Positions 10,999-37,503 of a stretch of 64,000 bases of DNA are shown here, one piece after another. Numbering within the stretch: position 1 is the first letter of the stretch; every line of letters starts with the position of its first letter. Both the position numbers and the translations under genes were made by a program. Origin of the DNA: Escallonia rubra. Its lineage: Eukaryota > Streptophyta > Magnoliopsida > Escalloniales > Escalloniaceae. The stretch lies in assembly GCA_033065855.1 (NCBI GenBank), contig JAVXUO010000509.1, forward strand, positions 98,315 to 162,314, written 5' to 3'. A model generated the notes under the pieces. That model made no database searches. It saw only the letters and a program-made list of their open reading frames with translations, and was not told where the DNA came from.

Positions 10999-11046
10999 TC
11001 TCTCGGAGTGAGAGAGGCTGAGAGCTAGAGTAGACTGTGAAAGTTG

Positions 11047-14235: not shown

Positions 14236-14274
14236 AAGCCGGGCGCGGGGGGCGGGGGGGGGGGGGGGGGGGGG
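14236..14274 (+). other. G-rich tract downstream of CACTA-1 transposase
   Basis: A run of more than 20 G, preceded by further G-runs, lies just beyond the transposase stop codon at 14295, on the strand antisense to that gene. It can form a G-quadruplex. Equivalent tracts occur in CACTA-2 and CACTA-3. Confidence 0.8.
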
Positions 14275-14294
14275 AACGCACGGGAAGGGGCTCA

Positions 14295-15960
14295 TCAGGG
14301 GTTCCCGAGTCCCGGATCTGGATCCTGCTGATCCGGGGCCGGGGCGGCCGGTCCAGCAGTGCCCTGCTCCCTCATCATCCGGCACACCACTGTAGCAATG
14401 CGCTGGATCTCCTCATCGTCCAACTGAGGCCGAGGAGCCGGTGTCTGTGGAGGGGCAGCAGGGGGTGAGGACGCTCCTATCACGGCACGAGGAGTCGTGC
14501 TAGGCAGGCCGCGTATGCGGCCTTTCGGCCGATTCACGACCTCCGGCGTATCCAGCCATCGCTTCAACCCCCCAGTATTCGCAGCCGTACTAGTGGACGC
14601 TGATGGCTGTCCGGACTGCTGCTCGGACCCCCTTAGTTGTTCATACGAGGCCTGCAAAAATAGTGGTTTAACGATATGTTAGGGCATTAATTAACGAAAC
14701 AGACATTGAGGATAAAAAGAAAAAACATTAACTTAAATAAATTGACTCACATCGATCCGCCGGGCAATATCTAAAATATAGTCGCCCGCCTGGTGCGTCT
14801 CGTCCTTGTCCTTCTTCCGCACGTGCGTCTGAGTATAGGTCAGAGCTATGACCTCATCCTCCTCTAGATCCGGGTGCTCGACCGCGTTCATGTGTCGGAC
14901 GATGTCGTGTGGCACCGACCCCCCCGTGTGCGTCGGATCTCTGTTCTGTCTGTTCTCAGCCCCGCTCTTACTCTTGGCGTCCCAACCTGGATCCGCAGCC
15001 CACCGATCTATCATCTCCCCCCATACACGGTGAGATATCCAATGTGGGGGATATTTCGTCATGTCCGTCATCGGGGCACCCGCGGGCAGCGCCTTCTTCA
15101 CCCGGTCCCGTGCATCGTGGAGCCATCGGCGGTAATTCTTGCCGATGTAGGCAAAGAAAGCCTGCTGCCCCAGTACCTGCTGCTCAGGCGTGTCAAACGT
15201 GAACCCCTCATGTAATGCATTCAATAACACAAATTAACAACATAAAGCAAACTGTAATTTAACATTTACTAACACTGAAAAAAATACTTCACCGTACCAG
15301 CCACTCCTCCCATAGGGCCTCCCTCGCAGCGGCATCCCAGTCCTTCCAGTACAGGCGTGGCTCGAAGAATCGGCCCTTCACAAGAACGCCGATCTTCGTC
15401 CTCGCCATATTCTCCAGGATCCTGCCAAAGAAGTAATTAAATTAATTAATACAGTTCAAATATAAATTAACACCCAAAAATTTTAAACATAAGACATGAG
15501 GTGATATTTTTAGTACTTACAGGCCCTCATGCGTGAGCGTAACTCTCTGGGGGTCGATGCGTACCCCGCGTGTCGGACCACGGCCTCGTCGAGATCCTAC
15601 AAAACACAGACATTAATACAGTTCAAATATAAGGCTAGCGAAAATGTACGAAACACCGTTATCAACTATACCTGAGGTAGAACCCACGGAAGATGGAGAA
15701 TGCAAGCGCGTGTGGGATGAATCTGCGTCGGGCTGGGGCGACGGCTCGAGCTGGGGCTGGGGCGACGGCGATGGCTAGGGCGACGGCTGGGGCTGGGCCC
15801 CCGATGGCTGTCCGCGATCACTCTGTGCCTCGTCATCAATAGGCAATGACGAGGTAGGACTAACCGGGGACGAAGCAGCTCGGCATCCAGCCCGGCCACG
15901 AATAACCCGTATCCTATCCATATCTGACTTCATATATATTATATACAAAGACATTAACAC
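14295..15960 (-). pseudogene. CACTA-1 Transposase_24-type gene with one premature stop
   Basis: Minus-strand exons are 15960-15666, 15596-15521, 15421-15298, 15206-14751 and 14651-14295, all with GT-AG borders and consistent phase. The product has a proline/serine-rich N-terminus and a GSRRGRGPTRG motif. It continues with TKIGVLVKGRFFEP, LYWKDWDAAAREALWEEW and FFAYIGKNYRRWLHDARD, then PPHWISHRVWGEMIDRW, KSKSGAENR, HPDLEEDEVIALTYTQTHVRKKD and a C-terminal segment LKRWLDTPE ending DPDPGLGNP. This is the plant En/Spm transposase family, thought to bind subterminal repeats. An in-frame TAG (15775-15777) interrupts the proline-rich N-terminal exon; everything after it is open. The gene is therefore recently damaged, or that stretch is spliced out. 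Homologous exons occur in CACTA-3 and, as remnants, CACTA-2. Confidence 0.85.
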
Positions 15961-15996
15961 GTGAAAAACAATAATTTAGGCATAAATCATCATCGG

Positions 15997-15997
<1 letters not shown>

Positions 15998-16041
<44 letters not shown>
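15998..16041. repeat. (AT)n microsatellite
   Basis: About 21 AT dinucleotides in CACTA-1, just upstream of the transposase start. Confidence 0.9.
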
Positions 16042-16043
<2 letters not shown>

Positions 16044-16123
16044 CGGATGTACAAAAACACATCAATAAACACCAAGTTCTAAAATGTTACTACATTTTTC
16101 CCGTGATGTTACAACATTACAAG

Positions 16124-16351
16124 TCAATCATTTTCAGTTTGCGAATCATCTTCATCACTATCCTCGTCGCCCTCTTCTTCGTGGGACTCGTCGTCCTCTT
16201 CATCTTCTAATTCATCCTCTTCATCAGTAGACTCGGTCACATCATCTTCAACACCAGATCTGTATGCACCCGGAGAAACACACGAGAACGTGTACCAAAT
16301 ATCCACGACATAGAACATAAAGCATGAGTCAAAATACTGTTTTATAAACAA
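16124..16351 (-). other. Acidic open frame in CACTA-1, uncertain
   Basis: A minus-strand frame ends in a run dominated by D, E and S (a TDEEDELEDEEDDE-type tail). It lies 160 bases upstream of the transposase start. It could be the last exon of a lost upstream transposase gene or a 5' exon of the present one. No catalytic motif is seen, and I do not recognise the non-acidic part. Confidence 0.3.
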
Positions 16352-16389
16352 TTAGCTTTTCCAAACTGTCCAAACTGGACATCCAAAGG

Positions 16390-16418
16390 CTCATTACAAG
16401 GCATTACTTTGTAATGAG
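16390..16418 (-). other. Conserved hairpin upstream of CACTA-1 transposase
   Basis: CTCATTACAA and TTGTAATGAG form a perfect ten-base inverted repeat around a nine-base loop. The homologous place in CACTA-3 (22096-22124) keeps a shorter version of the stem. Confidence 0.6.
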
Positions 16419-16679
16419 TACCTTTGAACGGGAACTAAAGGTTTCTATGCATGCATGTGTTCAGAAATTGATAAGATATGCAAGAATCTTTCCGAAATAT
16501 CAAAACTGCAGAATGATCGTTGCATATGTTACCAATTCCACATTAAATAGAACTCGTTGGCAACGAGTTGAACCATCTCGTTGCCAATGGACTTCTCAAA
16601 ACAACAATTAATATAAAGAAGGCAGGGTTTGTAAACAACGAGTAATTGAACCATCTCTGGGCAACATGGAGTAATTATG

Positions 16680-17515
16680 GGATGTACAAGGGCTAATTAG
16701 GGCTAACTGGGTTATTAGGGTTAATTACGATTATTAATTATAGCTGATTAGGGTTGATTAGGACTAATTAGGGTTATTTAGTCCTAATTAGGGTTTAATT
16801 GTGCCGAGTAGTGCTGATTAGTCCTAATTAGGGCTAATTGGGTTATGTTAGGGCTAATTAATGTTAATGAGGGATAGTTTCGGATGATTATAGCTGACTA
16901 GGGTTGATTAGGACTAATTAGAGTTATGTAGTCCTAATTAGGGTTTAATTGTGCCGAGTAGTGCTGATTAGTCCTAATTAGGGCTAATTAGGCTTAATTG
17001 GGTTATGTTAGGGCTAATTAATGTTAATGAGGGCTAGTTTCGGATAATTATAGCTAATTAGGGTTGATTATGACTAATTAGGGTTTAATTGTGCCGAGTA
17101 GTGATGATTAGTCCTAATTAGGGCTAATTAGGCTTAATTGGGTTATGTTAGAGCTAATTAATGTTAATGAGGGCTAGTTTCGAATAATTATAGCTAATTA
17201 GGGTTGATTAGGACTAATTAGGGTTATTTAGTCCTAATTAGGGTTTTGATGGTGCCGAGTAGTGTTGATTAGTCCTAATTAGCGCTAATTAGGCGTAATT
17301 GGGTTATGTTAGTGCAAATTATGACTAATTAGGCTAACTACAATCAATATGCGCATAATTGGGTTCATTTGGGCTAATTTGGGGTAATTACAGCTAATTT
17401 GAATTTCATGAGGTTCTTAGGGTTAATTAAAACTAATTAGGCTCGTTAGAGCTAATTAGGGTTAATTGATTTACTAAAATATTGTTAATCAGGACTAATT
17501 AAGGCTAATTATAGC
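16680..17515. repeat. Degenerate TTAGGGCTAATTA tandem array in CACTA-1
   Basis: Dense short repeats of the form TTAGGGTTAATTA and TTAGTCCTAATTAGGG, organised in higher-order units of about 120-130 bases (compare the blocks beginning near 16745, 16910 and 17050). The repeat core resembles the plant telomere heptamer but is interspersed with AATTA. Confidence 0.8.
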
Positions 17516-17639
17516 CAGCGCTTCAGCCACGATTAGATTCCAGGGGGTGCATGCTAAAAATGTCGCATTAACCTAACTAACCTAAATTTAATGCACATTC
17601 AACAACCTCAATTCCGACACCTCATATAGGGTGTCGATA

Positions 17640-17775
17640 TGGTGTCTGATACGTGTCTGACACCTCCGGACACGTGTCCGACACGTGTCCGACGCCTTTG
17701 GACACGTGTCCGATGCCTCCAGACACGTGTCCGACGCCCACCGGCACGCACCTCCAGACACATCGGCATACGTTA
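17640..17775. repeat. G-box minisatellite (ACACGTGTCC)
   Basis: At least four ACACGTGTCC cores within about 100 bases, spaced by CGACGCC(T/C)-type linkers. Each core is a perfect palindrome containing CACGTG, the plant G-box. Open frames on both strands (serine/threonine/proline rich) are by-products. Confidence 0.75.
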
Positions 17776-18114
17776 ATTTGTTTTTTAAATGTCGGACACC
17801 GTCGATCAGACGTGGTGTCCGTGTCTGCGCTAACCAACAGGTATCTCAATCCAATTGGGTCCCATCCTCCGTCAACAATCTCAATTCTCAATTCTCAAAT
17901 GCTCAATGCAATAAAAATTAACAAAAATCACACATTCAATCCAATTGGGTCACATCCTCCTTCAATAATCTCAATATCTCAAATGCTCAATGCACAATTT
18001 AAAATCTCACAATTCTCAAATGCACAATTAACAACCTAAAATTATGAAACAAATTATCAATGTTCAAATGGGAAAAAAATTGTTCAAAATGCACATATCC
18101 GGTGCGCTTGAATT

Positions 18115-19256
18115 ATTTCAATTTAGGGTTCAATTAGTTTAATTTAGGGTTCGGTTCGATTAGGGCATTCAATTTAGGGTTCAATTACAGAAATTTAGGG
18201 TTCAATTAAGGGGTTCTATTGATTCAATTTAGGGTTCGGTTGATTTTGGGCATTCAATTAGGGGGTTCAATTATTTCAATTTAGGGTTCGGTTGGATCAG
18301 GGCATTCAATTAGTTTAATTTAGGGTTCAATTCGATTAGGGCATTCAATTTAGGATTTAATTATGGTTCAATAACTTCAAATTAGGGTTCAATTAGGGGG
18401 TTTTATTAGTTGAATTTAGGGTTCGGTTGATTTGGGGCAATCAATTTAGGGTTCAATTAGTTCAATTTAAGGTTCGGTTGGATTAGGGCATTTAATTTAG
18501 GGTTCAATTAGGGGTCCAATTAGTTTAATTTAGGGTTCGATTCGATTAGGGCATTCAATTTAGGATTTAATTAGGGTTCAATTACTTCAATCTAAGGTTC
18601 AATTATGGGGTTCTATTAGTTCAATTTAGGGTTCGGTTGGGGCATTCAATTTAGGGTTCAATTAGTTCAATTTAGAGTTCGGTTGGATTAGGGCATTCAA
18701 TTTATGGTTCAATTAAGGGTTCAATTAGTTTAATTTAGGGTTCAATTCGATTAGGGCATTCAATTTAGGGTTTAATTATGGTTCAATTACATCAATTTAG
18801 GGTTCAATTAGGGGGTTCAATTGATTCAATTTAGGGTTCGGTTGATTTGGGGTATTCAATTTAGGGTTCAAGTAGGGGGTTCAATTATTTCAATTTAGGG
18901 TTCGGTTGGATCAGGGCATTCAATTAGGGGTTCAATTAGTTTAATTTAGGGTTCAATTCGATTAGGGCATTCAATTTAGGGTTTAATTAGGATTCAATTA
19001 CTTCAATTTAGGGTTCAATTAGGGGGTTCTATTAGTTCAATTTAGGGTTCGGTTGATTCAGGGCATTCAATTTAGGGTTCAATTAGGGGTTTAGTTAGTT
19101 TAATTTAGGGTTCGATTCGATTTGGGCATTCAATTTAGGATTTAATTAGGCTTCAATAACTTCAATTTAGGGTTCAATTAGGGGGTTCTATTAGTTCAAT
19201 TTAGGGTTCGATTGATTTGGGGCATTCAATTTAGGGTTCAATTAGTTCAATTTAGG
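18115..19256. repeat. TTTAGGGTTC tandem array in CACTA-1
   Basis: More than thirty occurrences of AATTTAGGGTTC, joined by CAATTAG, GGTTGATTT and GGGCATTC segments, in nested units of roughly 50-60 bases. Each contains a perfect plant telomere heptamer (TTTAGGG). It is not a true telomere, because the heptamers are not directly adjacent. Confidence 0.85.
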
Positions 19257-19904
19257 TATATGGGTATGTTTGCACCCGCTGAGTTAATTATGCTATGCTC
19301 ACCTCCACCGCCCCCGATCCCATGGATCTTCTCCATCAGCCATAAATTTGAAAAAGGCTTAAGTTGCAACTGGTTCAGAACAAGCTTGTTGACATAATAT
19401 ATCAGAAGCAGATATATTTTCCAATGTCTTTGTGCGCATCATTGTTTATGTTTTTACCATCTTTTTGTTAGATTTCAAGCCATGTCTAAATGTGCACTCG
19501 CGGGTAAACGAGCAAGTGTCAGAATTTTGTTCTTTTTGTTTTTTAACCAGTTTTCATTTATTCATTAATCATGATAGTTCACATATATTTTCTAATTTCT
19601 GCTTCTTTCTATTTTACTACTGGCATATTACTTAGCTGTTATAGGAAGTTTTTATTTAGAGATAAATTAATAAATCAGTTCTAAACACTTCAAGTTAACA
19701 ATAACAAGTAACAAATAGATAACAAAATCAAGCAAATATAAAAATGGCAACAGTAGCATCAAGCCATAGCCATAGATTCGATTGTTAAGGTGACGGTAGA
19801 AGGCAATTAACAATTACAGATAGATGCACACAAGAACTTACCGGAGTTGGCCGAAGCTCAAAGATCTAGGCAGACTTCGCTAGATCGATCTGGTCGTTGA
19901 AGAC
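19257..19904. other. Unassigned sequence in CACTA-1
   Basis: AT-rich stretch with short hydrophobic open frames at 19212-19397 and 19432-19635 and no recognised domain. It could be captured host DNA or an intron of a lost gene. Confidence 0.3.
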
Positions 19905-20065
19905 TGGCCTTGACGGCCGCCGGAGGTGGCGCGACGTCGGGGGGAAGATAGGGGTGTCGCTGGGGCTGGGTTGCCGTAGAGGGGGTCGCCGGAAGTGGGA
20001 TGCCGTAGAGGGGGTCGCCGGAGGTGGGTTGCCGTAGAGGGGGTCGCCGGAGGTGAGAACGCCGG
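19905..20065. repeat. GC-rich 30-base minisatellite in CACTA-1
   Basis: Three to four copies of a unit of about 30 bases containing GTAGAGGGGGTCGCCGGAGG, followed by a GA-rich run. A comparable GC-rich block precedes the right subterminal repeats of CACTA-2 (27600-27890), so the layout is shared. Confidence 0.65.
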
Positions 20066-20124
20066 TGGGTGAGAGAGAGAGAAACGGGAGAAAGAAAAGA
20101 AAGAAAGCAGATCTGCGTATTAAG

Positions 20125-20360
20125 GACAGACCTATAGTGACGGAATAAGTCCGTCGCTAATATTCCGTCGTTAAAACTTTCTAAATCTATTTAGCGACGG
20201 TTTTTCCGTCGTTAAAAGTTCGTTGGTAAAAATCCATTGGCAAATTCTTTTACCGACGGAATGGTCCGTTGGTAAACTTTTTTAACGACGGATTTATACG
20301 GACGGTAAATACCGTCGTTGAATCAGTCTTTTAGCGACGGAATACCTTCCGTCGCTAAAG
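20125..20360. repeat. CACTA-1 right subterminal repeats
   Basis: Copies of AGCGACGGA/TCCGTCGCTAA and variants in both orientations leading into the right terminus, mirroring 13655-14035. Confidence 0.85.
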
Positions 20361-20381
20361 CCATCTTTTCTTGTAGTGCGT

Positions 20382-21239
20382 TCAGTCGAACTATAATGGT
20401 TTTGATCCCGATTTTTCCGACCGGGTACCTAGGCCATTTGACCTTTGTTGTCGAACTCAAACCAAATTAGGTTTAATTTAGACATTTTCTTTTAATTATT
20501 TGTTTTGAGATAAAAATCACATAAACACAATTTAGAGACCAAATAGGGTATAGTGGGTAGCCTAACACCTTCGCGCTATATAACTTAGTCCTTGAATCTG
20601 AATTTTTGGTTTCATAGGTCAGAAGCTTAAATTGGACAATTCAGAGTCAAATTAGGGTTTTCTAGTTTAGCCTTGTTAATTATTAACCCTAAAAAAAAGA
20701 TGACGAGTCGACTTAGAACTTTGTGTACACTGTGTACTTATTTTATCCCTATTTACATGTTACGTTCCTCTATGATTACTTCTACATGCTTGTTTTTATA
20801 GTGTAGGGATTTAGGGTTTTATGGCTTGAGGATTTGTTTGGGGAATAACTTAATCGCATCATAGTTATATGCGTTTCCTTTTTCCACTACATTGTCAATT
20901 TGGTTGCTAAATTTGAAATAGATAGAAAAACTTGATCTATTGAGCTTGTGGTAAGAAACGTATGATGGGTTCTATGCTAGTGATTCTTGTTGTTTTCATT
21001 GCACTGGCAAATGGCTAATAAATATCCAAACTTGACAATAATTGGTGATGTTTGCTACTAATACATATTCTAGGATAGTTATGGATGCTTCGCACGTACA
21101 TTGGAGGTGCTTATATGTTTGCTCTTTTGAATTGCCCACCAAATGCTTGCTAAAATGCTTAGACAAGAACATAAATCAACATTCTTCATATTAAAGCAAG
21201 TAATAGTGTCCAAATGAGCAATATCTACAGCTTTGCCGA
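20382..21239. mobile_element. Probable LTR-like remnant, right part
   Basis: Continues the sequence interrupted by CACTA-1; the CGT duplication joins 13640 to 20382. It contains TAGCCTAACACCTTCGCG-like sequence near 20560-20580 that resembles Tat/Ogre-type LTR or leader DNA. No coding domain is visible. The junction with CACTA-3 near 21240 is not resolved. Confidence 0.35.
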
Positions 21240-21284
21240 TTAAGGAGTGACCCACTCTAGGGTTTATGACGGAGCAGATAAATA

Positions 21285-21835
21285 CTGCAGTCCCTAATTA
21301 ATCCTTATTAACCTAATTAAATCTTTATTATCCTAATTAAATCATAATAGCCCTGATTTACTATATGTAACCCTAATTACTACCTAATTAACCCTTATTA
21401 AACCCTAATTAACTCTAATTAAACCTAATTAAACCCTAACTACCCTAATTAAACCCAAATATATTCCTAATTTATTCTAATAAGCCGTAACCTAATTAAC
21501 CCTGATTACCATAATTAAACCCTAATAGATCCCTAATCAACCCTAATAAGCCCTAATTTAACCTAATTAACCCTAATTAAATCCCAATAGATCTCTAATT
21601 AACCCTTATTAAACCCTAATGGGTTAACTAACCCTTAAACATCCCTAATTAACCAAATTAAACCCTAATACATCCTTAATTAACCCTAATAAGCCCTAAT
21701 TAAACCCTAATAGATCCCTTATTGAACCTAACTAACCCTAATTACCTTAGTTAAATCCTAATAGATCCCTAATTAAGCCTAATAAGCTTAAATACAATAC
21801 TAACCCTAACTAAACTGCAAACCCTATCACAATCA
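21285..21835. repeat. CCCTAATTAA array in CACTA-3
   Basis: Degenerate repeats of AACCCTAATTAA and related forms, the inverse orientation of the array in CACTA-1, as expected because the element lies the other way round. Confidence 0.8.
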
Positions 21836-22095
21836 CAGGTAACACGATATGAACTCCGCTAATGAACTCCATATTCCACTGAGAAACATGAGTCGGCTAC
21901 TCGCATTAGAAATATTCATTGTTATTTTGTGAAGTCCATCAAATTTGAAAGTGAATCATTTTGGTTATCGCATGTTCTGGCAAATGAACCTAATGATTCC
22001 ATTTTTCCAAAATTTTGATATTTCGGAATGATTCTTGTATATTACCAGTTTAAACACATACATGTTTAAAAACCCTTATTTCCCATTCAAAAATA

Positions 22096-22124
22096 CTCAT
22101 TATAAAGTAATGCTCTGTAATGAG
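22096..22124 (+). other. Conserved hairpin upstream of CACTA-3 transposase
   Basis: CTCATTA and TAATGAG frame a central AGTAATGC as in CACTA-1 (16390-16418), at the same place relative to the transposase gene. The stem is seven bases here because of substitutions. Confidence 0.55.
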
Positions 22125-23004
22125 CCTTTAGATGTCCAGTTCAGACAATTTTGGGAAAAGTTAAGTGTTTATAAGACAGTGTATCGACTTATACTTCGAG
22201 CCCTCGCAGCCGCAGGGTGGTTCTTCCTCAGTGGGTTCGACGACATTATGTATATTTGGTATTAGCATTTAGTCATCATGTCTACCTTATATTTAAATTA
22301 CATTTGAATTGCATTAATGTTGGTACTTTTTAGGATCTTGTCAAGATCGTGGACCCACACGCGAGGTACGCATTGATCCTCAGCGGAAACAACGAGTGAC
22401 TCTCACCGAGGATGGCCAGTAAGTAAAAAATCACATAATGTTGTACTTAACACTTTAATGATTCTGATAGTTATTACTATTCACTTATTTAATGATATTA
22501 ATGCTATTAGGATCCTGGAGTGTCCGGTGAAAACGAAGATCGGCGTCCTTGTGAAAGGCTGCTTCTTTGAGCCACTGCTGTACTGGAAAGACTGGGATGC
22601 CGAGACGAAAGAGGCCCTGTGGGAGGAGTCCTGGTATGGTTTAATAAATTGTCAGCTAATATTTGTTTAATTAGTACGTTATATTTAAATTAATCGTACT
22701 GATTGTATAATTGGATGCCGGAGGGGTTCGAGTTTGAGTCGTTTGAGCAGAAGGCATTGGGGAGAATAGCCTTTTTTGCCTACATCACCAAAAATTACTG
22801 GCAATGGCTACATGACGCATGGGAGCGAGTAAGGAAGTTGTTGTGGATTGTGCCCCGATTGAGGTGTGGAAGGGGGCATCCCCCTCATTGGATCTCAATA
22901 TCTGTATATGGACAGATGGTCGATAGGTGGATCAGTGATCCATCTTGGGAGGCGAAGAGTAAGAGTGGGATGGAGAACATAAAGGATCAAAATCCTATGC
23001 ATGG

Positions 23005-23021
23005 GGGGGGGGGGGGGGCCT
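23005..23021 (+). repeat. G homopolymer in CACTA-3 transposase exon
   Basis: About 17 consecutive G replace the segment that reads HTGGSVPHD in CACTA-1. The exact length is uncertain because such runs are prone to sequencing error. Confidence 0.7.
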
Positions 23022-23159
23022 TACATCGTCGTCCAACATACGAATGCGGCTGAGCACTCGAACCTAGAGAAGGATGAGGTGTGTGCTTTGACGTACACGA
23101 TGATGTACGTAAGGAAAAATGATAAAGATGATGCACATCCACTACAAGAAAAATTACTT

Positions 23160-23580
23160 TTACTAATGGATATTTCCGTTACTAAATGTCCGATATCCGT
23201 CGGCAAAGACTTTTAACGACGGACGTGCTGTAGCTAAAAGTCTGTTGCCTATAACCCCATCGCTAAACGTTTTGCGACGGAATTTTTAAATACGCCGCCT
23301 AAAAGTATACTTTTAGCGACGGACGTATTAATACAATTAGAGACGGAGTATCCGTCGCTAAATATATTTTTTGTATTTTTTTTTGAAAATAATTTATTAC
23401 ATAAATGTTTAGCGACTGAACATTTCGTCACCAAAAATTGTTGACTTTTAGCGACGGATATTTTATCGCTAAACGTTTGTCTGTTAAAACTTTAGCGACG
23501 GCATTTATGTCGCTAAAAGTCATTTATTAATAATACTTAGACTTTTAGCGACGGAATAAAATTTGTCGCTAAAAGTCAAA
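23160..23580. repeat. CACTA-2 left subterminal repeats
   Basis: Repeated TTTTAGCGACGGA motifs and inverses, more diverged than those of CACTA-1. Confidence 0.8.
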
Positions 23581-23840
23581 CTAATTAAAAAAATTTATTT
23601 TTCAAATACCTAAACATGTAATTACAAATTCTCAAAAATCACAATCCATCAAATATTTTTTTCTCAATGCACTTTAGGGTTAAATAATTGATGATCCATC
23701 AACAATTATTTAACCCTAAAACAGACACAAGACATATATAGAAAGAATGGATTCTATACTAATCGAAAAATAAAATGTATACAAAATTCAGAAGGGCACA
23801 TGAGCGGGGTACAATAGAGTAGGGGAGGGGAGTACAAGTC

Positions 23841-23857
23841 GGGGGGGGGGGGGGGGG
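23841..23857 (+). other. G tract downstream of CACTA-2 transposase remnant
   Basis: Seventeen G preceded by AGGGGAGGGGAG, just past the end of the transposase remnant (stop at 23923) and antisense to it. The position matches the tracts of CACTA-1 and CACTA-3. Confidence 0.75.
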
Positions 23858-23922
23858 CACGGGAGCGGGACACAAAGAGCTAAGAAGGGAAGAGTTGATC
23901 AGGGGTCGGCAAGTCCTGGATC

Positions 23923-24219
23923 CTACTGATCGTCCTCGTCCACGGGAGCACTGTGATATGGATCTGGCTCGGCATGTCCAACAGCAGTGCCCTGCATGTA
24001 AAGGTACGAATGCAGTAATCTTAATAGCAATCGTATGTAGTGTTCACTAATCGTATATAGTGGTTGTACCCGATTATGCGCCATGAACATCCTATAAACC
24101 TCCGCAGCAATGCGACGGACCTTGTCCTTAAGTAATGACAAGCGTTCCACAATCGGTGTCTGCGTCTGTGGAGATGCAGCGTGAGGTGGGGATGCTCCTA
24201 TCACGACACGTGCAGTCAT
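23923..24219 (-). pseudogene. 3' remnant of CACTA transposase in CACTA-2
   Basis: A minus-strand frame begins RVVIGASPPHAASPQTQTP and continues VRRIAAEVYRMF. After an apparent unspliced intron it ends EPDPYHSAPVDEDDQ. It matches the last exons of the CACTA-1 and CACTA-3 genes. The upstream exons are missing and are replaced by repeats and captured sequence. Confidence 0.75.
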
Positions 24220-24675
24220 ACTGGGGAGGCCACAAACTGATTAACCCTAATTAATTCTTAATTAAACTCTAGTTTACAGTAATTAATCCTAATTAAACCC
24301 AACTAACTCCGATTAGCCCTAACTAACACTGATTAGCCCTAGTCACTAATTAACCCTAATTTACTGTTAATTTAATCACTAATTAGTCCTAATTAAACCC
24401 AGTTAGGATAATTAACTGTAATATGCTCTAATTAGGTTCAATTAGCCAGAATTAGCATGTATTAAATCTTAAATTATAACACTAATTGAGTCTAATTAAA
24501 CGCAATTAACTATAATCAACCCTAAATAGCTCGAATTACTTTAATTGCTCCTAATTAACACATTAACTCGACATGTTCACCTTAATTAGCTTTTATCTAT
24601 TTAGGTTCGGTACAAAATCATTTGGTTATAGTGAACTTGAGTTGCTCATATCATCATTCCTAAATCTTTTATTAT

Positions 24676-25050
24676 CTAACGATCCACCAAATCAGGATTC
24701 TCAAGTAAACCCGGTGCTTTTGGTTGGTAAGTAATGGACTCAAAAATTTTCCTTAGCTCGTCATGTTGAACCATCTCATCTAAGATCTTATCTTTGGGGA
24801 CTTCAAATAACACTTTTTGCTCCCAGCTCTCCATGTTTGTAGAAGAGAAAACTTTTTGAGACAAAAGTTCTTTCTCAGTCTGTCGCAGACATTTCAGGCC
24901 CTCCATTGTTCCTGAAATTAGATGGTAAATATACAGTTTTCTCATACTGATCATGTATGCCCGACATATGACTTGCCTTTCAACTGATGGATTGCAACCA
25001 ATATCAAGCAACACAAATCTTGACGCCCCAACCAAATTTATGCCAGACAT
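24676..25050 (-). pseudogene. Captured CLASSY-like SNF2 helicase fragment, left arm
   Basis: An open frame of 124 codons reads LVGASRFVLLDIGCNPSVER, then CRAYMIS, YHLISGTMEG, LLSQKVFSS, DKILDEMVQHDELRKIFESI and TYQPKAPGLLENPDLVDR before a stop. Established family knowledge: SNF2 motifs V and VI followed by the KDKILDEMVQH and YQPKE-type tail are the C-terminus of plant CLASSY proteins, which recruit RNA polymerase IV for RNA-directed DNA methylation. Only about the last 120 residues are present and the RAYRIGQ motif is altered to RAYMISM, so it cannot act as an ATPase. No intron is visible. It is interpreted as host gene sequence captured by the transposon, then duplicated head to head. Confidence 0.75.
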
Positions 25051-25135
25051 ATGGCTTGCCTTTCAAATCCCATTTCACTCGAATTAGCTCTCATTAGCAT
25101 TAACCCTATTTAACTCGAATTAGCCCTAATCGGCC

Positions 25136-25501
25136 CTGGTTGGGGCGTCAAGAGTTGTTTTGCTTGATATTTGTTGGAACCCATCAGTTGAAAGGCAAAC
25201 CATATGTCGAGCATACAAGATTGGTCAGAAGAAAACTATGAATATTTACCATTTAATTCCCTCAGGAACAATGGAGGGCAAGAAATGTATGCGACAGGCT
25301 GATAAAGACATTTTGTCTCAAAAAGTCTTCTCTTCTGCAGACATGGAGAGTTGCGAGCCAAAAGTGTTATCTAAAGTCTCAGAAAATAAGATCTTAGACG
25401 AGATGATTCAACATGACGAACTAAGGGAATTTTTTGAGTCCATAACTTACCAACCAAAAATAGCGAATTTACTTGAGAATCCTGATTTGGTGGATCGTTA
25501 G
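25136..25501 (+). pseudogene. Captured CLASSY-like SNF2 helicase fragment, right arm
   Basis: Inverted partner of the previous feature. It is open from LVGASRVVLLDICWNPSVER through CRAYKIGQKK, YHLIPSGTMEGKK, DILSQKVFSS, NKILDEMIQHDELREFFESI to ENPDLVDR and a stop. Motif VI (CRAYKIGQ) is better preserved than in the left arm. The two arms differ at many codons, so the duplication is not recent, yet both remain free of stops over their whole length. Confidence 0.75.
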
Positions 25502-25589
25502 ATATTAAAGGATTTATGAATGATGATTTTCTCATCTCAAGTTCACTATAACCAAATGATTTTGTACCGAACCTAAATAGATAAGAGCT

Positions 25590-26755
25590 AATTAAGGTGA
25601 ACATGTCGAGTTAATGTGTTAATTAGGGGCAATCAGGGTAATTCGAGCTATTTAGGTTGATTACAATTCATTGCGTTTAATTAGACTCAATTAGTGTTAT
25701 TCAGGGTTTAATTCGGGCTAATTCAGGCTACTTGATTAGGGCTAATTGAGTGTAATTAAAGCATACTATAGTTAATTACCTTAATTGGGTTTAATTAGGA
25801 TTTGTCTACGATTTATCTGGACAATCAGGGTTTAATTAGATTAATCAGCGGTGATTAGGGCTAATTAGATATTAAATTAACAATAAATTAGGGTTAATTA
25901 ATGTTAATTGGGGTTAATCAATTTTAATTATGGCTATTTAGGTCTGATTAGGGCTAATGAGGCCAATCCGAGCTAAATAGGGTTAACTAGAATTAATTGG
26001 GTTTACTTAGACTTAATTATTGTTAATTAGGGCTTAAGTAAGAGCTAATTAAGGTTAATTAGAGTTAATGTGTTAATTAGGGTTAATTAGTATTGAGGCA
26101 CTTTAGAATTCGTTGAGTTCATTCGCAGAGTTGATATTGTCCCACTTGTGATTGAGTCTAGGGTTTAAGTATATAGTTAGGGTTAGATTGTATTTAGGAT
26201 AATTAGGGTTAATTGGGAATATATTAATAGGGTTTAATTAGAGTTTAGTTATAGTTAACTAGGGTTACCTAGGGATGTGTTAGGGGTTAATGAGGGTTAG
26301 TTAAGGGTTAATCGGGGTTAATTAGGGTTAATCGGGATTAATTATGTTTACTTAGGGTTAATCAGGGTTATTTAGGTTTAATAATAGTTAATTAGGTTTA
26401 ATTAGGGTGAATCGGAGTTAATTACAATTAATCGGGATTAATTAGCGTTGATCGGGGTTGACTAGGTTTTATTAGGGTGAATTAGGGTTAATTATAGTTA
26501 ACTAAGGTTGCCTAGGGATGTGTTATGGGTTAATCGGGGTTAATTAAGGGTTAATCGGGGTTAATTATGTCTACTTAGGGTTAATCAGGGTTATTTAGGT
26601 TTAATAATAGTTAATTAGGTTTAATTAGAGTTAATTACGGTTAATCAAGGCTAATTAGGATTGATCTGGGTTAACTTGCTTTAATTAGGGTGAATCAGGG
26701 TTAATTAGGGTTACCTAGGGATGTGTTAAGGGTTAATCGGGATTAATTAGAATTA
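25590..26755. repeat. TTAGGGTTAATTA array in CACTA-2
   Basis: Degenerate repeats such as GGGTTAATTAGGGTTAATCGGGG with a higher-order period of about 200-250 bases; the blocks holding GTTACCTAGGGATGTGTTA near 26262, 26505 and 26700 mark it. Similar but inverted repeats occupy 24240-24600. Confidence 0.8.
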
Positions 26756-26763
26756 TTTTTTTG

Positions 26764-26893
26764 TGGTTACCCCTCGGGGCTTGGCCAACATTGTGTGATA
26801 AGTACAGTCTGTTCCACGTCAGTGGCAAACGTTGTGCTTCATGATTCTCTTCCTCGAAATGACCACCATTCCCTGGAAAGTTGTTACCATTCC
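26764..26893 (-). other. Possible captured exon in CACTA-2
   Basis: A minus-strand stretch of about 43 codons is open and not repeat-like (NGNNFPGNGGHFEEENHEAQ, then LPLTWNRLYLSHNVGQAPRG). It borders sequence up to about 27550 that is unlike the rest of the element and could be intron or UTR of the same source gene. I do not recognise the protein. Confidence 0.35.
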
Positions 26894-27599
26894 TCAAGGA
26901 ATAACAAAAGCTACTCCAAATAAATTAAATCCATCAACTACTGAAAATAGAACAGGTAAATAGAGCTGCAAAAGCATCAGGTCATCCCAGTTAAGCAGTT
27001 CACTGCCATGATCCGGCCATCTTATACAAGCCAATAGTGAACAAGTCGATATTACTAACTGAAAAACAAAGAAACTGAATCGCAAATAAAATTAGTCCTA
27101 TATTTGCGAAATGAACTCAAACCAAAGGAACTTAACCTCATTGTTCTGCCAAAGACAAAATACGCATGGATAGATTCAATTTCGATGTGACTCCCAACTA
27201 CCAATCAAAGGGGCTAAGGCATCAATTTCTAAAACTTCACATTACAACAATTCTGGATTTCAGAAAGAACACTTCGACATCAGAATAACTTGTATGGAAA
27301 AAAAAATTCTAATTAATAATAATCAGAAAAATTCAACAAGCCACAGTAAATGCCAAGAATATAACACTATGCAGGGCATGGGGGATTGATGAAATAGGGA
27401 TACTACAAATTAATTAGAAGAGAAATCAAGTTTGAACATATTGAGGGATTAATGTACTATGTAGAATGTACATAAACATAGACATGTAAGTTTTGCATTT
27501 AATGGAATAACAGACCTTTCACCAAAAAAAAAAATCAGAATAATTCTAACATGTAACAAAAAAAATTTCTTCTCAAACACTTAATTAAAATAACACGTA

Positions 27600-27890
27600 C
27601 AAGTGGGGGCGGCCGGGGATGTGGTGGGCCGTTGACTGACGATGCGGTGGCCTGTCGCCAGGGTTATGGGCAATGGTCGGTGGGTCAGTGGGGCGTGATG
27701 GAGGTGGGGGTAGAGGGGGATCGAGAGAATGGTGGTGAGGATGGAGGGGGAAAGATCGACGGTGATAGAGGTGGCCGACAGCATGTTGGCAGCAACGACG
27801 CCGGGGAAGGTGGCCGGTGGCGTGTTGGCATCAACGCGCGGGGGAAAGAGAGAGAGAAAGGAAAGCGACGACGCAGAACAAAAGAAAAGC
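27600..27890. other. GC-rich segment before CACTA-2 right end
   Basis: GTGG/GGTGGCC-rich sequence ends in a GAGAGAGAAAGGAAAG stretch directly before the right subterminal repeats, the same layout as 19905-20110 in CACTA-1. Overlapping glycine/arginine-rich open frames are not supported. Confidence 0.5.
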
Positions 27891-27904
27891 TATTTTGGGT
27901 TATA

Positions 27905-28300
27905 TGGAAATACTTTTAGCGACGGATTCCACCGTCACTAAAAGTCCTTCTCTAAAAGTAACTTTTAGCGACGGACATTTAGCGACAGTAAAATCCGTCG
28001 CTTAAAATTATAAAAACTATTAAAAAAAAGATTGAGTGACGAACTTCAAGCCGTCGCTAATTTTATTTCCAAAATTTAACTGAAATTAAAAATTCCGGGA
28101 AAAAAATTTAGCAACTCAAAACCTGTCGGTATTGACCCGTCGCTAAAAGTTCGTCGCTAATATTTTCAAGAACGGACAATTCCATCGCTGAAAACTTTTA
28201 GCGATGGACATTTAGCGATGGGTCACTACCGTCGCTAAAAGTATCTTATAGCGATGAAAGGCGTCCGTCGCTAAAAGTCAGTCGCTAAAGACATTTTTTC
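27905..28300. repeat. CACTA-2 right subterminal repeats
   Basis: Numerous TTTTAGCGACGGA and inverse copies ending at the CATTA terminus. Confidence 0.85.
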
Positions 28301-28980
28301 TTGTAATGATCGGCGGGGAACTTCGTTTCATAGATTGCCCGGCAGATCGGTGTAAGTTACAAATTAATTTGTTTATAGTTAAAATTTTGGCTATATCTTC
28401 AATGTCTATTGCCTTAATGTCTTCAATGTTAAATCACTATTCTGCAGGCCTCGTATGAACATATTAGGGGGTCTGGGCAGCAGTTCGGTCAGCCATCAGC
28501 TTCCACAAGTACTAGTACGAGTACCAGGAGATTGAAGCGGTGGCTGGATACACGGGGGGGTCGTCGATAGGCAAAAAAAGGCATGTACACGGCTGCCCAA
28601 CGCGACTGCATGTGCCGTGATGGGAGCATCCCCACCCCCTACTGCCTCTTCACAGACACAGACATCGACCTCGGAGCGACAGTTACACCTGGATGATATT
28701 CGTCGCATTGCTGAAGAGGTGATCAAGATGATCAGGGCTCAGGATGAGGTATAAAACAATTATTTTATAAAGTCAATATATACATGAATAAACACAATAT
28801 ACAATTACTAACGAGAATGCGTCTTTGCTTTTAATGCAGGACATTATTGCCTACACTTGCCAAGCTAGATTTGGATGATAGTACCCCCATGGACGATGAC
28901 GACCAGCAGGATTCAGATCCCGCTCTCGACGAGCCTTAAGACCTCCCCCTCTTCCCGTCCTCTGCCCTCCTGGAATTGTG

Positions 28981-29002
28981 CTCCCCTCCCCTCCCCTCCC
29001 CT
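28981..29002 (-). other. G4-capable tract downstream of CACTA-3 transposase
   Basis: Four CCCCT units on the plus strand (GGGGA on the minus strand) lie about 40 bases past the transposase stop. The G-rich strand is antisense to the gene, as in CACTA-1 and CACTA-2. Confidence 0.75.
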
Positions 29003-29229
29003 ATTTGTATCCCCTCATGCTCTTGTCGCCGCCCCTTGTTATATTTGGTTCACTCTGAACAATATTGAATACATTTTATGTTCAATTGGTATAGAATCTG
29101 AATATATATACTTTGTATTTTAGGGTTAAATAATTGCTGATAATGTGGATTGGGAATTGATAATTGGAATTGTGATTAAAAAAATAATCTTTGTATTTAG
29201 GTTTGGGTATTAAAAAAAATTTTAAAAAG

Positions 29230-29700
29230 TTTTAGTGGCGGATTTTATTTCGTCACTAAAAGTCTATAATGACATCTATTGAAAAACTTTTAGCAACGGA
29301 ATAATGGTTCTGCCGACGAACTTTTAGCGACGGAACTTCTGTCACTAAAAGTCCATTACTTTTTGGCTGCAGACTTTTAGTGACAGAATATCCATCACTA
29401 AAAATGCTGCCGGTAAAATCTTTAGCGACGGAATTTTCCGTTGCTAAATATTTTTCAAAATTAATAATTTTTGAAAAAAGAAATTAAACTAATATACATA
29501 AATTATCTTTAGCAACGGACTTTCCGTCGCTAAATGAATTTAATATCCGTCGTTAAAAGTTAAATTTTCTGTGACGAATTTCTGAGGGTTATTTGCAACG
29601 GACTTTTAGCGACATAGTGCCCGTTGCTAAAAGTCTTTTGCGACGGAATACGGACTTTTAGCGACGAAATTGTTCGACGCAAAAAGTCATTTTCCTTGTA
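29230..29700. repeat. CACTA-3 right subterminal repeats
   Basis: Repeated CTTTTAGCGACGGA motifs and inverses leading to the terminus at 29703. Confidence 0.85.
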
Positions 29701-29703
29701 GTG

Positions 29704-30680
29704 GACGTAGGGCGAAAGAAAGATACAATTGGGGAAAGGGAACCTCGTATAAAATCTTGATCAATTCGAGCAAATCGTAAAGGTTGCCAATATCAAAGGG
29801 CATTCTATTCCAATAATTGTAGTAGCAATTTCTGTCCAAAGTGATCATGTAGCGGGTACCGTAAACATCTGTAAGTTGCCAATTACACAAGTACTATAAA
29901 CATCGTTGACAAAAAAGGTCTAGGGCTAGTACAATCGTTCCTCATCTATCTCATATAGGGCTAGTAGAATCTATGCTTCAAATATGACAAAAAAAGGTCT
30001 TCCCTTGTCTTCCCATTCCTTTGCAAACAGTTATCCTTATAAGAATTACCCACAACTGTGACTGTCTGCATATCAAATGGTAGTAAGTTCTACTGTTAGC
30101 TTCACCCCAACTTTTCAAGTTAACAGCAGGAAATAAAATAAATTTTCAAGTTACCTGCACTTATTGATTCCTAAACTTGTGTCATAAAATATCGGGAATG
30201 AAAAGTCATGGATAATGCCATTTAATTCCACAAAAGAGCAACCTGGTCCAACCAAAATCATCTCACTAGCTCAATGCCAACTGCCCCATGAAATGTTTAT
30301 TAAAAAATCATGTGAAGCACATTGGTTTGGAGCTCCAGTGTAGGCACTAAAAATATTTTTTTGATGTACAGTAATATGTAATGTTGTTGACTAGTCAAAT
30401 ATTCAACATCATCACAAATGTGGGTCAAAGCGCTGAGTTGGAGTCAAATAAAATAATAAGTTCGAACCAAATTTAAATTGGAAAAACTAGTCCAACTTGA
30501 TCAATGGGTCTAGCCCAAGTATGTGTCGCTAGTTGCCACGGTAGAAATCAAATGGATCAACTATGACTAAAAGAAAGTATTTCTCAATATATGGAATTAA
30601 TAGTCCATTTAACTAAGAAATTCAGATTGAGTTATGGGGACGCAATCTCTTTAATTACAAAGTTAAAGCCTACCATGGCC
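29704..30680. other. Intergenic sequence between CACTA-3 and the duplication
   Basis: AT-rich, no supported gene. A minus-strand frame at about 29710-29890 (CNWQLTDVYGTRYMITLD, NCYYNYWNRMPFDIGNLYDL) is not low-complexity and could be an exon fragment, but I do not recognise it. Confidence 0.4.
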
Positions 30681-32719
30681 AAACTACAAGTTTTTGGGTG
30701 AAATTAATCATATTTCGAGAGCATACCTTTTAACTTGAGAGTTATCACTGCCCAAACCATGGCCTTAAATAATATAGGTAATAAAAACTAATTTGTGCTC
30801 ATCCTTGTGACAACTATGCTTTGCCCTCCCGAGTAACAAGTGATTACATCTTTATTCGTAAAAGTTAATTCCTAACAAAAGGCAATTCATGATTGCTATA
30901 ATGTCGTTGATGAGGCAGTGATTGACGTTTGTGATTGATGGTGGTGTGGGATGGGAGGGGGTGGTATTGCTGGATGGTAGCGTCACCGGAGGCGGTGAAA
31001 ACGTTCCACAGGCGAACAACGGTGTCATCAGAAGCAATGGGGGTAAAGTCAATTTGGGAAACGTGCATAGCACCCATGCCTTTTTTGCCTTAAAAGCATG
31101 AAACAACAAATGTACCCTCAACTAATCAAGATAAGCAAACAGATGAAATAAAATGGTGACGGAGTACAGTACAAAGATAATTTTGAAGAAAATATAATGA
31201 ATTCAAGGCCGTATATATATGAAAAAAGGACAAAGTTAAGGAAATCACAGGTGGTACGAAGTGTCGGAAATTCACCGGCAGGTATTGTCTGATTAGTTGT
31301 GTAATCGAAGTTGATAGCGAAATGATAGAAGCAGGGGTGCAGTGGGGGGTTGGGGGGCGCAGGACAAAAAACCAACCAGAAATTGGGCACGCACGGCACG
31401 CCTGCTTTGGACTCCATCGGCCCATCACTTTCTGTCTCCTCCCTTCCTCTTTTTCACCCACACCACACAGCATTTGCCCTCTCTCTGTCTCATCCTTCTG
31501 AGTCTGACATCCACCAAAGCTTCAGGCCCAGTATGTTGTATATGAATGTTCATCTCCACAAAGATGTCTAGGAAGCAGAAATCCATGGAAACCAAGCCCA
31601 GTGTACAGACACAAGCATCTACATATTGGGCCAGAATTGTTGAAGAGAAAAGTGTGATCCTTCCTTTGGGGAGAGGAACTATTTAAATCTTCTTTTGCGC
31701 GGGTAAGAGTGCATTAATGACAAAACTTCAATATACGGTACAGTAAAGTGTAAAATTAAGGCAAAGAGATGAGCGAGTAATTTTACCCTTCTTTAGAGGA
31801 ATAGCTAGCACGAATCCTAATCAAATAAAATTTTATCTTTCAAATGACGGGATAAAGCATTAATCAGTTCCAAAAAGTTGGAATTTACTAATTTGAGATG
31901 CATGCCGCCTTCGAATAAGTATAATCAACTTCAAGTGACAACTACAGAACAATGTAAATATTTATCTTTTCCTTGAAGAACACTGCTGGGTCTTTTCAAA
32001 TTTGTGTTTCAAATGTCAATATTATAAGAGGATGTGACAGGCTATAAACCAATTATTTGAAGAAGATTTGGAATTTAACTTTTTTAACTAGGCCCTATGG
32101 CAAAATTATGTTTGCTTTGGGGTGATTATAGTGCATTCTTATGAGATTGTAAATTATTATGGCAAAAGTAGCGTATACTTTGGCATTAAAAGGTAGGCTC
32201 GTTTCGAACGGTAATAATTATTTATTGTTGTTAAATAAAAGTGACGCTAGATACATTTTTGTAACGAAAGATCGGTGATATAAAATTTAATTAATAATGT
32301 CAATATTATTTTAACGGTATGTGTTGATAAGGCAGTTACGGTGAAATTACTATACACCGGATGATTCTATTTCTATTCACGAAGTAGAATGAGTGAATAG
32401 CCCTACGTGGAAGCGGAAACCAGCTTGTTTGATAATCGAGTACATAGAATGAGTGTGTAAACAATGACACAAGTGGAATTAGAAGAAACCATCAAAGGAT
32501 TTGGTGGGCAATGACAAAACCAATGAACAAAACCAGGGTAAGTTCTTCAAAAGGGACGGTAGTACATGGTTTTGGTTAAAAGACTGGAATAAACAGTGGG
32601 GATTAGGCTCTCCAGCCCCACCCCCCCAAAAAAAACAAAAAGAATCCTAGGAACCAAAACCTCGGAATGGTTTCTGGTTTTGCATCATTGACTTTTTAGT
32701 AGGCTTCTATTTGTGCAAG
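30681..32719. other. Upstream region of ADH1 copy 1
   Basis: No supported gene. A conserved block, about 31190-31600, has a counterpart at 55197-55560 in unit 2. It contains pyrimidine-rich sequence and short minus-strand frames (such as MDFCFLDIFVEMNIHIQHTG) that are partly preserved in both units. This may be a UTR or a small unknown gene. A tract of C and A runs lies at 32620-32640. Confidence 0.45.
32668..32680 (+). promoter_or_regulatory. Candidate anaerobic response element, ADH1 copy 1
   Basis: Two TGGTTT motifs (32668-32673 and 32675-32680) about 50 bases upstream of the TATA box, with a GCCCC motif near 32615. Paired GT and GC motifs form the anaerobic response element of plant ADH1 genes. 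Function is inferred from motif and position. Confidence 0.5.
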
Positions 32720-32727
32720 TATAAATA
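32720..32727 (+). promoter_or_regulatory. TATA box of ADH1 copy 1
   Basis: TATAAATA about 130 bases upstream of the ATG at 32854; the same box is present in copy 2 at 57858. Confidence 0.7.
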
Positions 32728-32853
32728 CCTCAAAAGAGATCGAAGTGTACCCCATCTCACACAACTCCAAACAGTCGTAGCTACAAGCACAGGCAAACTC
32801 AAATATTAGATTGTTCATCTGGGTTTATTGTATTGCAAGCAAACAAGGAAAGG

Positions 32854-35377
<2,524 letters not shown>

Positions 35378-35409
35378 TGAAATGGCAGGAAGCTCTCCAG
35401 TGTTCAATG

Positions 35410-35415
35410 AATAAA
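35410..35415 (+). terminator. Poly(A) signal of ADH1 copy 1
   Basis: AATAAA 33 bases after the stop codon, within a block conserved in copy 2. Confidence 0.6.
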
Positions 35416-36025
35416 GGATGTTAGGCTCTTGTGCATCAAAGTCTAACTATAGGCTCCTGGTTTACTGGACCTTAAGTTTCTTTCTTGTATTTGTTCTTCT
35501 TTGGTGTCTTCAGCAATTGTGATTTGTGATGAGAGAGCATTCCCTCTGGCCTTGTTTCTGATGTGTATATAATGGTAATGTTAAATTGTCTGTTCAAAGA
35601 TTTTACCATCATTTGGAAGTCCAAGTGTGATAAGAAGGGAAGCCAAATGTGACAATAGTTATCTAAATAAATCCAAGTTATCTTTCTATCTGCCATCTCT
35701 CAAACTGGAACCCTATCTCTCCCTTTCATTCAGGTAGTTAGGTCGATTAAGAGGTTCTTTGTCTACGACTCATCTCATATCATCACTCTAGTCTTGCCAT
35801 TTCCAATTGAAGATCGTCGCCGACAATTGGTAACGCATAACTTAACAGCATTGATCTACGTTGGTCAATAAAGATTTTCATTTATATTTACGCAGCCCCG
35901 GTTGCCAAAGCAGCAAAGACTTTTAACGAAATACTAATAGATTGCCTTTATATGTTTCTTATATGTATTAAATAGTAATGTTAAGTTGTTTGTTCAAAGA
36001 TTTATCAGCCACTCAATTCCAGAGT

Positions 36026-36107
<82 letters not shown>

Positions 36108-37503
36108 CCCCCCCCCCCCTCTCCCTCTCTCTCCCTTCTGCTTTTTAGTAAAAATGTATACTAACTTTCATTATATGATAATGATGCTACTTTTAAAGTT
36201 TTGACTCCCATTGTGGTTCAAGCAATTCAAAAGATTATGTCGATCTTGTTCTAAAATAGCCTCACAATTTGGAAGTTCAAGTTTGATAAGAAGCGCATTT
36301 AAAAAAGAGAAAAGAAGAAGTGCGACGCAGAAATAATCATGTGTAACATAGGAAAGATCCCTGCATATGACTAAAACGCCCTGCGAATGACTAGAACGAG
36401 GGGTTTTTTTTATCACATTACTGACATAAATAGATTCAAGTCATCTTTTAATCTTCCATCTCTCAGTCATCTCATCTCATCACGCTTAACTCAACAACAT
36501 TGATCTGCATTGCCAACAAAGATTTTTCAGTTTATCTACGCAGTCCCCTATTGTCAAACTTTACAGCAACAGATTTGGGAAAAAAAGCAACTGAGACTCA
36601 TACAAAAGCACTGACATTGTGTTGAACGAAAATGCCTTCATGCTAAGAAATTTATATTGTCTTTTATCTTCTCCCCATTACCCTATCCAGCCAAAGCCAC
36701 CAGCACGGGGTTTTACATCCACCGAACACCACCACTTCCTGCCACCAGTGCGGCAGATTACCAGTAAGGAGAAGCAATTGTACGTGGTCCCACTTATCTA
36801 GAATGCAAATCTCGTGTAAAAGTAAGATAGCCACCGTCAGAATACCCATACATCTTTCCACCACTGCCATTTTCACCACCAGCATCACCAACCACCAAAG
36901 TCTCACCACACTCGTCACCACCAACTAACCCACCACCGCTGCCACCAAGCACCAAACCCAACTCTGTAAGCAACAACCCCAACTCTATCGCTACCAACCA
37001 CCACCACATAAACGTCACTATTGTCACATAACCGTACCAGAATCAATGCTCAAGCTAGGGCCCAGACCGGAAATCTTCACCCTTTCTTGTCCGTTCTTGT
37101 TCCCATCTTTCTCATTTTTGGGAGTTATTGTTTCTGGTATTTGTGGTGGTGGTGATAAAAATTGTGCGCCAAGGAATATCTGACGAGCACCGTAGTAGTG
37201 AGTTTCTTGTTAACCATTGCCAGGAGATACGGTGGTCTCTTTCGCAGTGGACAAGCAACGGGTGGAGAAGGGAGATTTGGAATGGTCTCTTTCACAGAGG
37301 GCAAGCAACGGGTGAATGTAGGCCAGGATTGCTTTTTCATCAAACAGAGTGTCAACACTTAAAACACAATCATTTCACTTCTGAAAAAAAAAACTTACTA
37401 TAGATGGTAAATATTGCACGATATCCTTATCCACTACCGAAAATACTCTGAAATTCTCAACACTAAATGTCTGTAACTTGAGGTTTATTCTACATTTTGA
37501 TTA
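35416..37503. other. Intergenic region between ADH1 copy 1 and SPT5 fragment
   Basis: Non-coding, paired with 60577-62717 in unit 2. Short frames, including one through the CCACCA-rich stretch 36830-37020, are not conserved in frame between the two units. Part of it (35570-35740) recurs in modified form within unit 1 near 35930-36480, suggesting an internal local duplication absent or shorter in unit 2. Confidence 0.5.
36029..36120. repeat. (CT)n(AT)n(C)n compound microsatellite
   Basis: About 24 CT units, then 14 AT units, then a C run. Unit 2 has only a short CTCTCTCCCTCTCTC remnant here (60878-60897), so the array expanded in unit 1 or shrank in unit 2. Confidence 0.9.

Follow-up and report, generated by a model that had tools for sequence, protein, structure and literature searches.

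The sequence under study lies in a window of 64,000 nucleotides (the whole stretch of DNA that was analysed, C2786:98315-162314) and consists of a large inverted repeat enclosed in a CACTA transposon, the parts of which are collected in Table 1. Two arms of about 650 bases each, separated by about 100 bases, occupy positions 24387-25034 and 25137-25800 and are 85.6% identical over 665 columns (BLASTN, 24387-25034 against 25800-25137). Their gene-derived parts stand head to head, 92 bases apart, and carry stop-free open frames of 128 amino acids (24676-25062, minus strand) and 123 amino acids (25130-25501, plus strand); the left and right arms are respectively 72% and 77% identical in amino acids to the C-terminus of a 641-residue host SNF2 ORF. 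A sequence-only reading of this DNA had described two opposed open fragments of one SNF2 C-terminus, a spacer of about 100 bases and homology reaching into the flanking repeats, and each of these features is present, with arm likeness extending outwards into CCCTAATTAA and TTAATTAGGG repeats on both sides. Much of 24237-26750 is filled by degenerate units about 10 bases long (TTAATTAGGG and its complement), which belong partly to the arms; repeats of the TTAATTAGGG type also occur at 21290-21870, outside the palindrome-bearing element. Compared with the PDB, the left arm was closest to ATRX and RAD54-like proteins; it had no match in Pfam, and the right arm had only a sub-threshold match to Helicase_C (E 0.041).

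Table 1. Features of the palindrome-bearing element and the sequence that surrounds it (window positions)
Feature	Position	Strand	Remarks
Outer CACTA-family sequence, left part, with ORF2-type frames (insertion target)	22377..23139	+	22700-23139 tested
Target-site duplication ATC, left copy	23137..23139		
Non-autonomous CACTA element with inverted repeat, 5169 bp	23140..28308		Ends CACTACAAGAAAA (23140) and TTTTCTTGTAATG (28308)
Left terminal inverted repeat (CACTACAAGAAAA)	23140..23152	+	Exact; identical end in other copies
105-aa frame, remnant of CACTA ORF2-type gene	23923..24240	-	tblastn to outer element
Left flanking CCCTAATTAA-type repeats (outer part of left arm)	24237..24588	+	Repeat and conservation analysis
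Left arm, piece of donor 3' flank past the stop codon	24589..24675	-	24589-24666 84.8% identical to L051 728-806
Left arm, C-terminal coding part of donor SNF2 gene	24676..25044	-	About 80% to L051/L049 (BLAST with gaps)
Inter-arm spacer, 92 bases	25045..25136		BLASTN
Right arm, C-terminal coding part of donor SNF2 gene; stop codon 25499-25501	25137..25501	+	81-82% to L051/L049 (BLAST with gaps)
Right arm, piece of donor 3' flank; about 680 host bases after the stop missing	25502..25588	+	25510-25588 88% to L051, 80 columns
Right flanking TTAATTAGGG-type repeats (outer part of right arm), continuing to about 26750	25589..25936	+	
Right terminal inverted repeat (CATTACAAGAAAA on the minus strand, one change)	28296..28308	-	
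Target-site duplication ATC, right copy	28309..28311		
Outer CACTA-family sequence, right part, ending TTCCTTGTAGTG	28312..29703	+	28312-28700 tested

When folded as RNA, positions 24590-25587 reach -617.8 kcal/mol, against -220.3 +/- 10.2 in 20 shuffled versions, none of which was as stable (0/20; z = -38.9), so the palindrome is not a product of chance. A hairpin with arms of about 400 bases or more had been predicted. Searching 20000-32000 against Rfam at the gathering score returned no match, and so no known miRNA or RNA family.

The carrier is classed as CACTA by its ends, its 3-bp target-site duplication and its ORF2-type remnant, and it is of the Pack-CACTA type in that a host gene fragment lies inside the element. 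The remnant, which has no Pfam match, is 50% identical over 64 amino acids to the outer element (translated subject 28593-28781, E 9e-13, tblastn) and is the sole transposase-like trace seen between its ends, from which we conclude that the element is non-autonomous. Its limits are set by an empty-site search, in which the two flanks, 22700-23139 and 28312-28700, served as one joined query and 40 places of 978 candidates were scored; two of the 40 were the window's own halves, and all 38 others aligned across the join with 76-83% identity. The element therefore runs between the two ATC copies and was inserted into an older CACTA family. Its CACTA nature had been recognised from the sequence; position 29703, considered as a further end, belongs to the surrounding sequence, since the flanks there disagree (ATC against GAC) and the empty-site search places the end at 28308. 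The left end of the outer sequence was looked for in the window and not found. A second complete CACTA element of 6738 bp lies at 13641-20378, with perfect CACTACAAGAAAA ends and a CGT/CGT target duplication, and holds a frame (14733-15233) with a weak match to Transposase_24 (E 0.0073, below the cut-off). The window also contains a duplicated block, the copies of which (31216-38775 and 55198-64000) lie some 25 kb from each other, share 97.5% identity over 3035 bases and hold near-identical 197-aa frames, that of the first copy having been tested and found to match ADH_N (PF08240); a 610-aa frame at 46605-48437 with a Retrotrans_gag domain (E 1.3e-11); and a 163-aa frame on the minus strand at 10570-11061 of the membrane transport family PF03547 (E 4.6e-42).

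Both arms go back to the final coding exon and 3' flanking sequence of a host SNF2 gene. The donor exon was found as a 641-aa ORF with SNF2 and Helicase_C domains (PF00176, 5.6e-24; PF00271, 1.2e-16) on two contigs, C1563 (locus L049) and C2428 (L051), which are 99.5% alike over 3.7 kb and could be alleles, assembly duplicates or a recent duplication. Among the arm-search matches listed there was no other open frame of gene length, the next longest having 192 aa. The match extends through the donor C-terminus to the native stop codon and takes in an 80-base piece of the 3' flank, the right and left arms of the window being 86% and 83% identical to the donor in the alignment that the sequence-only reading had proposed. 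Two features of the donor are missing from the window arms: a 21-base tandem duplication in the coding part of the last exon (SEDKILY/SEDKILD), and a stretch of about 680 bases, with a GA run in it, that separates the stop codon from the 3' piece. The resulting short join is common to 55 of 56 arms, locus L044 being the sole exception (31 of 60 counted bases of the 3' piece). It has no clean GT-AG borders and is located at a short repeat, so that a simple deletion, or an insertion on the host side, would account for it as well as the retro-capture of a spliced mRNA.

As to the identity of the donor, 17 of 30 extracted SNF2 loci were tried, and 15 gave a frame of at least 150 aa (the donor and 14 others). 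The donor's nearest relatives among the 14 were L034, L023 and L021, at 304, 297 and 280 bits, the next scoring 121. By their motifs L034 may be CLSY1/2-like, L021 and L023 DRD1-like, and the donor itself CLSY3/4-like. From these motifs and its relatives within the same genome, with which alone it was compared, the donor is a putative gene of the CLASSY3/4 type. What had been suggested, a CLASSY-like source, has in this way been traced to a host SNF2 gene of a tentatively assigned subfamily.

The inverted repeat is not confined to the window, and further copies, for which the sequence-only reading had advised a search, are numerous. When the genome (566 Mb) was searched with the whole palindrome, all 40 scored places, the best 40 of 464 candidates, aligned over 1036 or more of its 1391 bases, the alignment covering at least 1200 in 38 of them, the window included; every count of palindrome copies is accordingly a lower bound, beginning at 40 places. 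A protein search with the right arm, comprising the best 150 of 565 candidates with two rows for the host gene, gave 148 arms at no fewer than 114 places among the matches listed; 34 pairs of arms lay within 3 kb of each other, 33 of them head to head, and the partner of an unpaired arm may fall among the lower-ranked candidates. The corresponding search with the left arm took the best 150 of 566 candidates. The 32 loci that we analysed are distinct copies (the highest arm identity between loci is 0.94, none reaching 95%), and assembly duplicates are ruled out as the source of copy number for these loci, the arms of which differ by at least 5%. Two loci depart from the common arrangement and may represent older ones: L044 (C1245), with its arms head to head and 1.35 kb apart, and L057 (C1208), with a single arm within the 3.4 kb examined.

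The history of the arms was approached through an alignment of 56 arms of at least 300 bases from the 32 loci, together with the host; two shorter pieces were dropped. In the bootstrapped tree 23 of the 27 left arms fall into a single clade with a bootstrap of 96 and no right arm inside it, compared with all 27 in a FastTree tree that was read by its topology. Deep nodes are weak (bootstrap 20-57), and the single-arm ancestor that L057 might suggest is not established. The two consensus arms share 97.3% identity over 450 columns; against the host the right consensus reaches 89.6% and the left 88.2%, while single right and left arms differ from their own consensus by 5.3% and 6.1% on average; this relation places the inversion shortly before the spread. 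The arms share a common origin, and both the palindrome and its copy number are established. In our reading the fragment was captured once, was inverted just before the spread and has probably drifted independently thereafter.

Both arms of the window are open as far as the native stop codon, which had been thought notable for dead sequence and which might suggest that a short piece of the CLASSY C-terminus is produced as a decoy or dominant-negative protein. The coding test, which took the 50 clade-assigned arms and left out six arms outside both clades, makes such a role scarcely credible. Private changes numbered 331 nonsynonymous and 141 synonymous in right arms (omega 0.89) and 411 and 189 in left arms (omega 0.88), values that are near neutral; frameshifts occur in 3 of 23 right and 8 of 27 left arms (11/50), and stop codons in 25/50. 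The openness of the window is itself less unusual than it had seemed, for half of the arms (25 of 50; right 11/23, left 14/27) are free of stops, and the mean neutral expectation is about 0.30 for an open right arm, 0.36 for an open left arm and 0.11 for both. Among the eight loci chosen by DNA (L001-L008) the window alone has both arms open and unshifted, and the window was itself singled out for openness; the product, its start and its promoter are, moreover, hypothetical. Stops are somewhat fewer than neutrality predicts (0.78 and 0.78 per arm observed against 1.19 expected for right and 1.03 for left arms), and this counts somewhat against regarding the arms as passengers, though the sample leans towards open arms, since a protein search supplied 24 of the 32 loci.

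A different role was envisaged in the sequence-only reading, that of a transposon counter-defence by siRNAs from the hairpin against the host CLASSY gene. In a fuller form of this idea the siRNAs would reduce expression of that gene and weaken Pol IV recruitment, so aiding the spread of the element, perhaps during its burst only. Several observations agree with this: an SNF2 donor that is putatively CLASSY-like by its motifs, a long hairpin, an inversion dated near the spread, and a level of identity to the donor sufficient for siRNA targeting. The longest exact run against the host is 33 nt in the window's right arm and 24 nt in its left, with 22 and 8 perfect 21-mer sites respectively; at least one perfect host 21-mer is present in 53 of the 56 arms, the longest run among arms is 60 nt, and all arms pooled match 111 host 21-mers over 231 bases. 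Judged by sequence, targeting of the donor is possible, which is a capacity and not evidence of action. That CLASSY proteins recruit Pol IV is known for Arabidopsis (PMC7617993), and there is a precedent in rice, where miR820 in CACTA elements lowers OsDRM2 (PMC3459959).

Signs that pairing with the donor has been kept since the spread are nonetheless absent, for no upkeep by co-evolution or selection was found in this comparison within one genome. Columns that match the host change more slowly in raw rate (0.050 and 0.056, against 0.082 and 0.100 at other columns); this was considered as a sign of upkeep and rejected, being explained by sequence context and by variants that return to the host base. 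At host-differing columns 54 and 95 changes are returns of this kind, and changes to a non-host base number 36 and 47 where 62.8 and 90.9 were expected; once both effects are allowed for, host-matching columns are kept no better. Left and right arms are no more alike within copies (0.883) than between them (0.882; permutation p = 0.24, 22 copies), which argues against co-evolution of the arms; L052 stands out with a left-right identity of 0.938. A test for a miRNA-like core gave a lowest 21-column window with an observed/expected ratio of 0.52, for which p = 0.011 by Poisson but 0.397 by column permutation. Finally, the elements decay like methylated DNA. Substitutions per site in the 50 arms are highest at CG (228/1441, 15.8%) and CHG (225/1840, 12.2%), followed by CHH (559/7230, 7.7%) and A/T (479/15250, 3.1%), so that CG and CHG sites decay fastest. 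The tests for selection since the spread came out negative, and decay is near-neutral. Of the proposed counter-defence, then, the anatomy, a CLASSY-like donor and the capacity to target it have stood, and a maintained function has not, given the near-neutral omega, the lack of arm co-evolution, little or no extra conservation of the arms and decay of the methylation type; taken as a whole we consider it unlikely.

The same decay has a bearing on whether the host could have put the palindromes to use, as a source of siRNAs that tune its CLASSY gene or silence the CACTA family. Self-targeting siRNAs would suit the decay at CG, CHG and CHH sites, but the arms are not conserved above the rest of the element across copies, and we regard host-side use as very unlikely. 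Identity to the window, with 18-23 of 23 copies counted per segment out of 31 besides the window, is 0.899 and 0.888 for the arm coding parts, 0.886 for the spacer, 0.882 and 0.885 for the repeats, 0.872 and 0.929 for the 3' pieces and 0.848 for the ORF2 remnant. The coding parts exceed the repeats slightly in identity but are richer in G+C, and these identities are uncorrected for composition; the right-arm 3' piece (0.929) is more alike across copies than its neighbouring segments. Both observations, like the L052 arms and the Poisson value for the best-kept window, count somewhat against a passenger.

The explanation that we favour, and hold to be probable, is that of a passenger palindrome, captured, inverted, amplified and now decayed, that could make siRNAs. 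A non-autonomous transposon of the Pack-CACTA type would have taken up the final coding exon of a CLASSY3/4-type host gene with part of the 3' flank. An inverted duplication of this fragment and its flanking repeats would have followed, not long before the element came to occupy at least 40 places. After the spread the copies were presumably methylated and have drifted as non-coding passengers. A transcript across the palindrome would fold back and be diced into siRNAs, which we suppose to act mainly on the family itself, through self-methylation; owing to the short perfect matches still present, the donor gene could be an incidental target. In some respects a function fits better than a random passenger: a silencing gene was apparently the one captured, the palindrome is timed with the spread, and rice CACTA elements provide a precedent. 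The absence of selection after the spread is compatible with function during it. The most far-reaching form of this argument would be that a CACTA family, independently of miR820, made a long hairpin from part of a Pol IV-recruiting gene of the CLASSY3/4 type and spread it to at least 40 places while its siRNAs lowered the donor. The present copies would then be the decayed remains of a counter-defence against the step at which RNA-directed DNA methylation recruits Pol IV; we think this doubtful.

Transposon RNA directed against host silencing genes seems to be rare, miR820/OsDRM2 being the one worked-out case that we came upon in a limited search. In the open literature searched (titles and abstract openings of the papers listed) we found no report of a CLASSY fragment captured by a transposon. 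A second such case, against another silencing component, would if true suggest that these captures are selected. The family offers a clean test, for its copies are numerous, there is one likely donor, and small-RNA data could be examined at exact 21-mer sites; a negative outcome would make it a worked example of a suggestive hairpin as passenger.

The palindrome family has the anatomy of a miR820-like system, with no clear sign of upkeep. In the case of miR820 (Nosaka et al. 2012, PMC3459959), a fold-back within rice CACTA elements is derived from OsDRM2, and both cleavage and co-evolution are shown. The likeness lies in a fold-back from a host gene of RNA-directed DNA methylation, carried in CACTA DNA transposons, with copies that spread with the element; a fold-back of a host silencing gene in a transposon is likewise what we meet here, to the extent that the CLASSY reading is right. 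By contrast, miR820 is a defined miRNA of 22/24 nt, its homology to the donor reaches into an intron, and there are 5 copies in Nipponbare, whereas the present family, as read from its DNA, has a putatively CLASSY-type donor, arms of about 450 nt of gene plus repeats and at least 40 copies, with no co-evolution found in the genome. An inverted repeat of an aquaporin gene on soybean Gm14 has arms of similar length (621 bp), and its siRNAs match a gene elsewhere (PMC3534067); it is described as a single genomic region and not a transposon family, and the siRNAs there were sequenced. With Pack-CACTA elements (PMC13317346) the present family shares CACTA ends, a 3-bp target duplication, a non-autonomous nature and a captured host gene fragment, and it differs from them in that the fragment forms a long inverted repeat and appears to come from a silencing gene.
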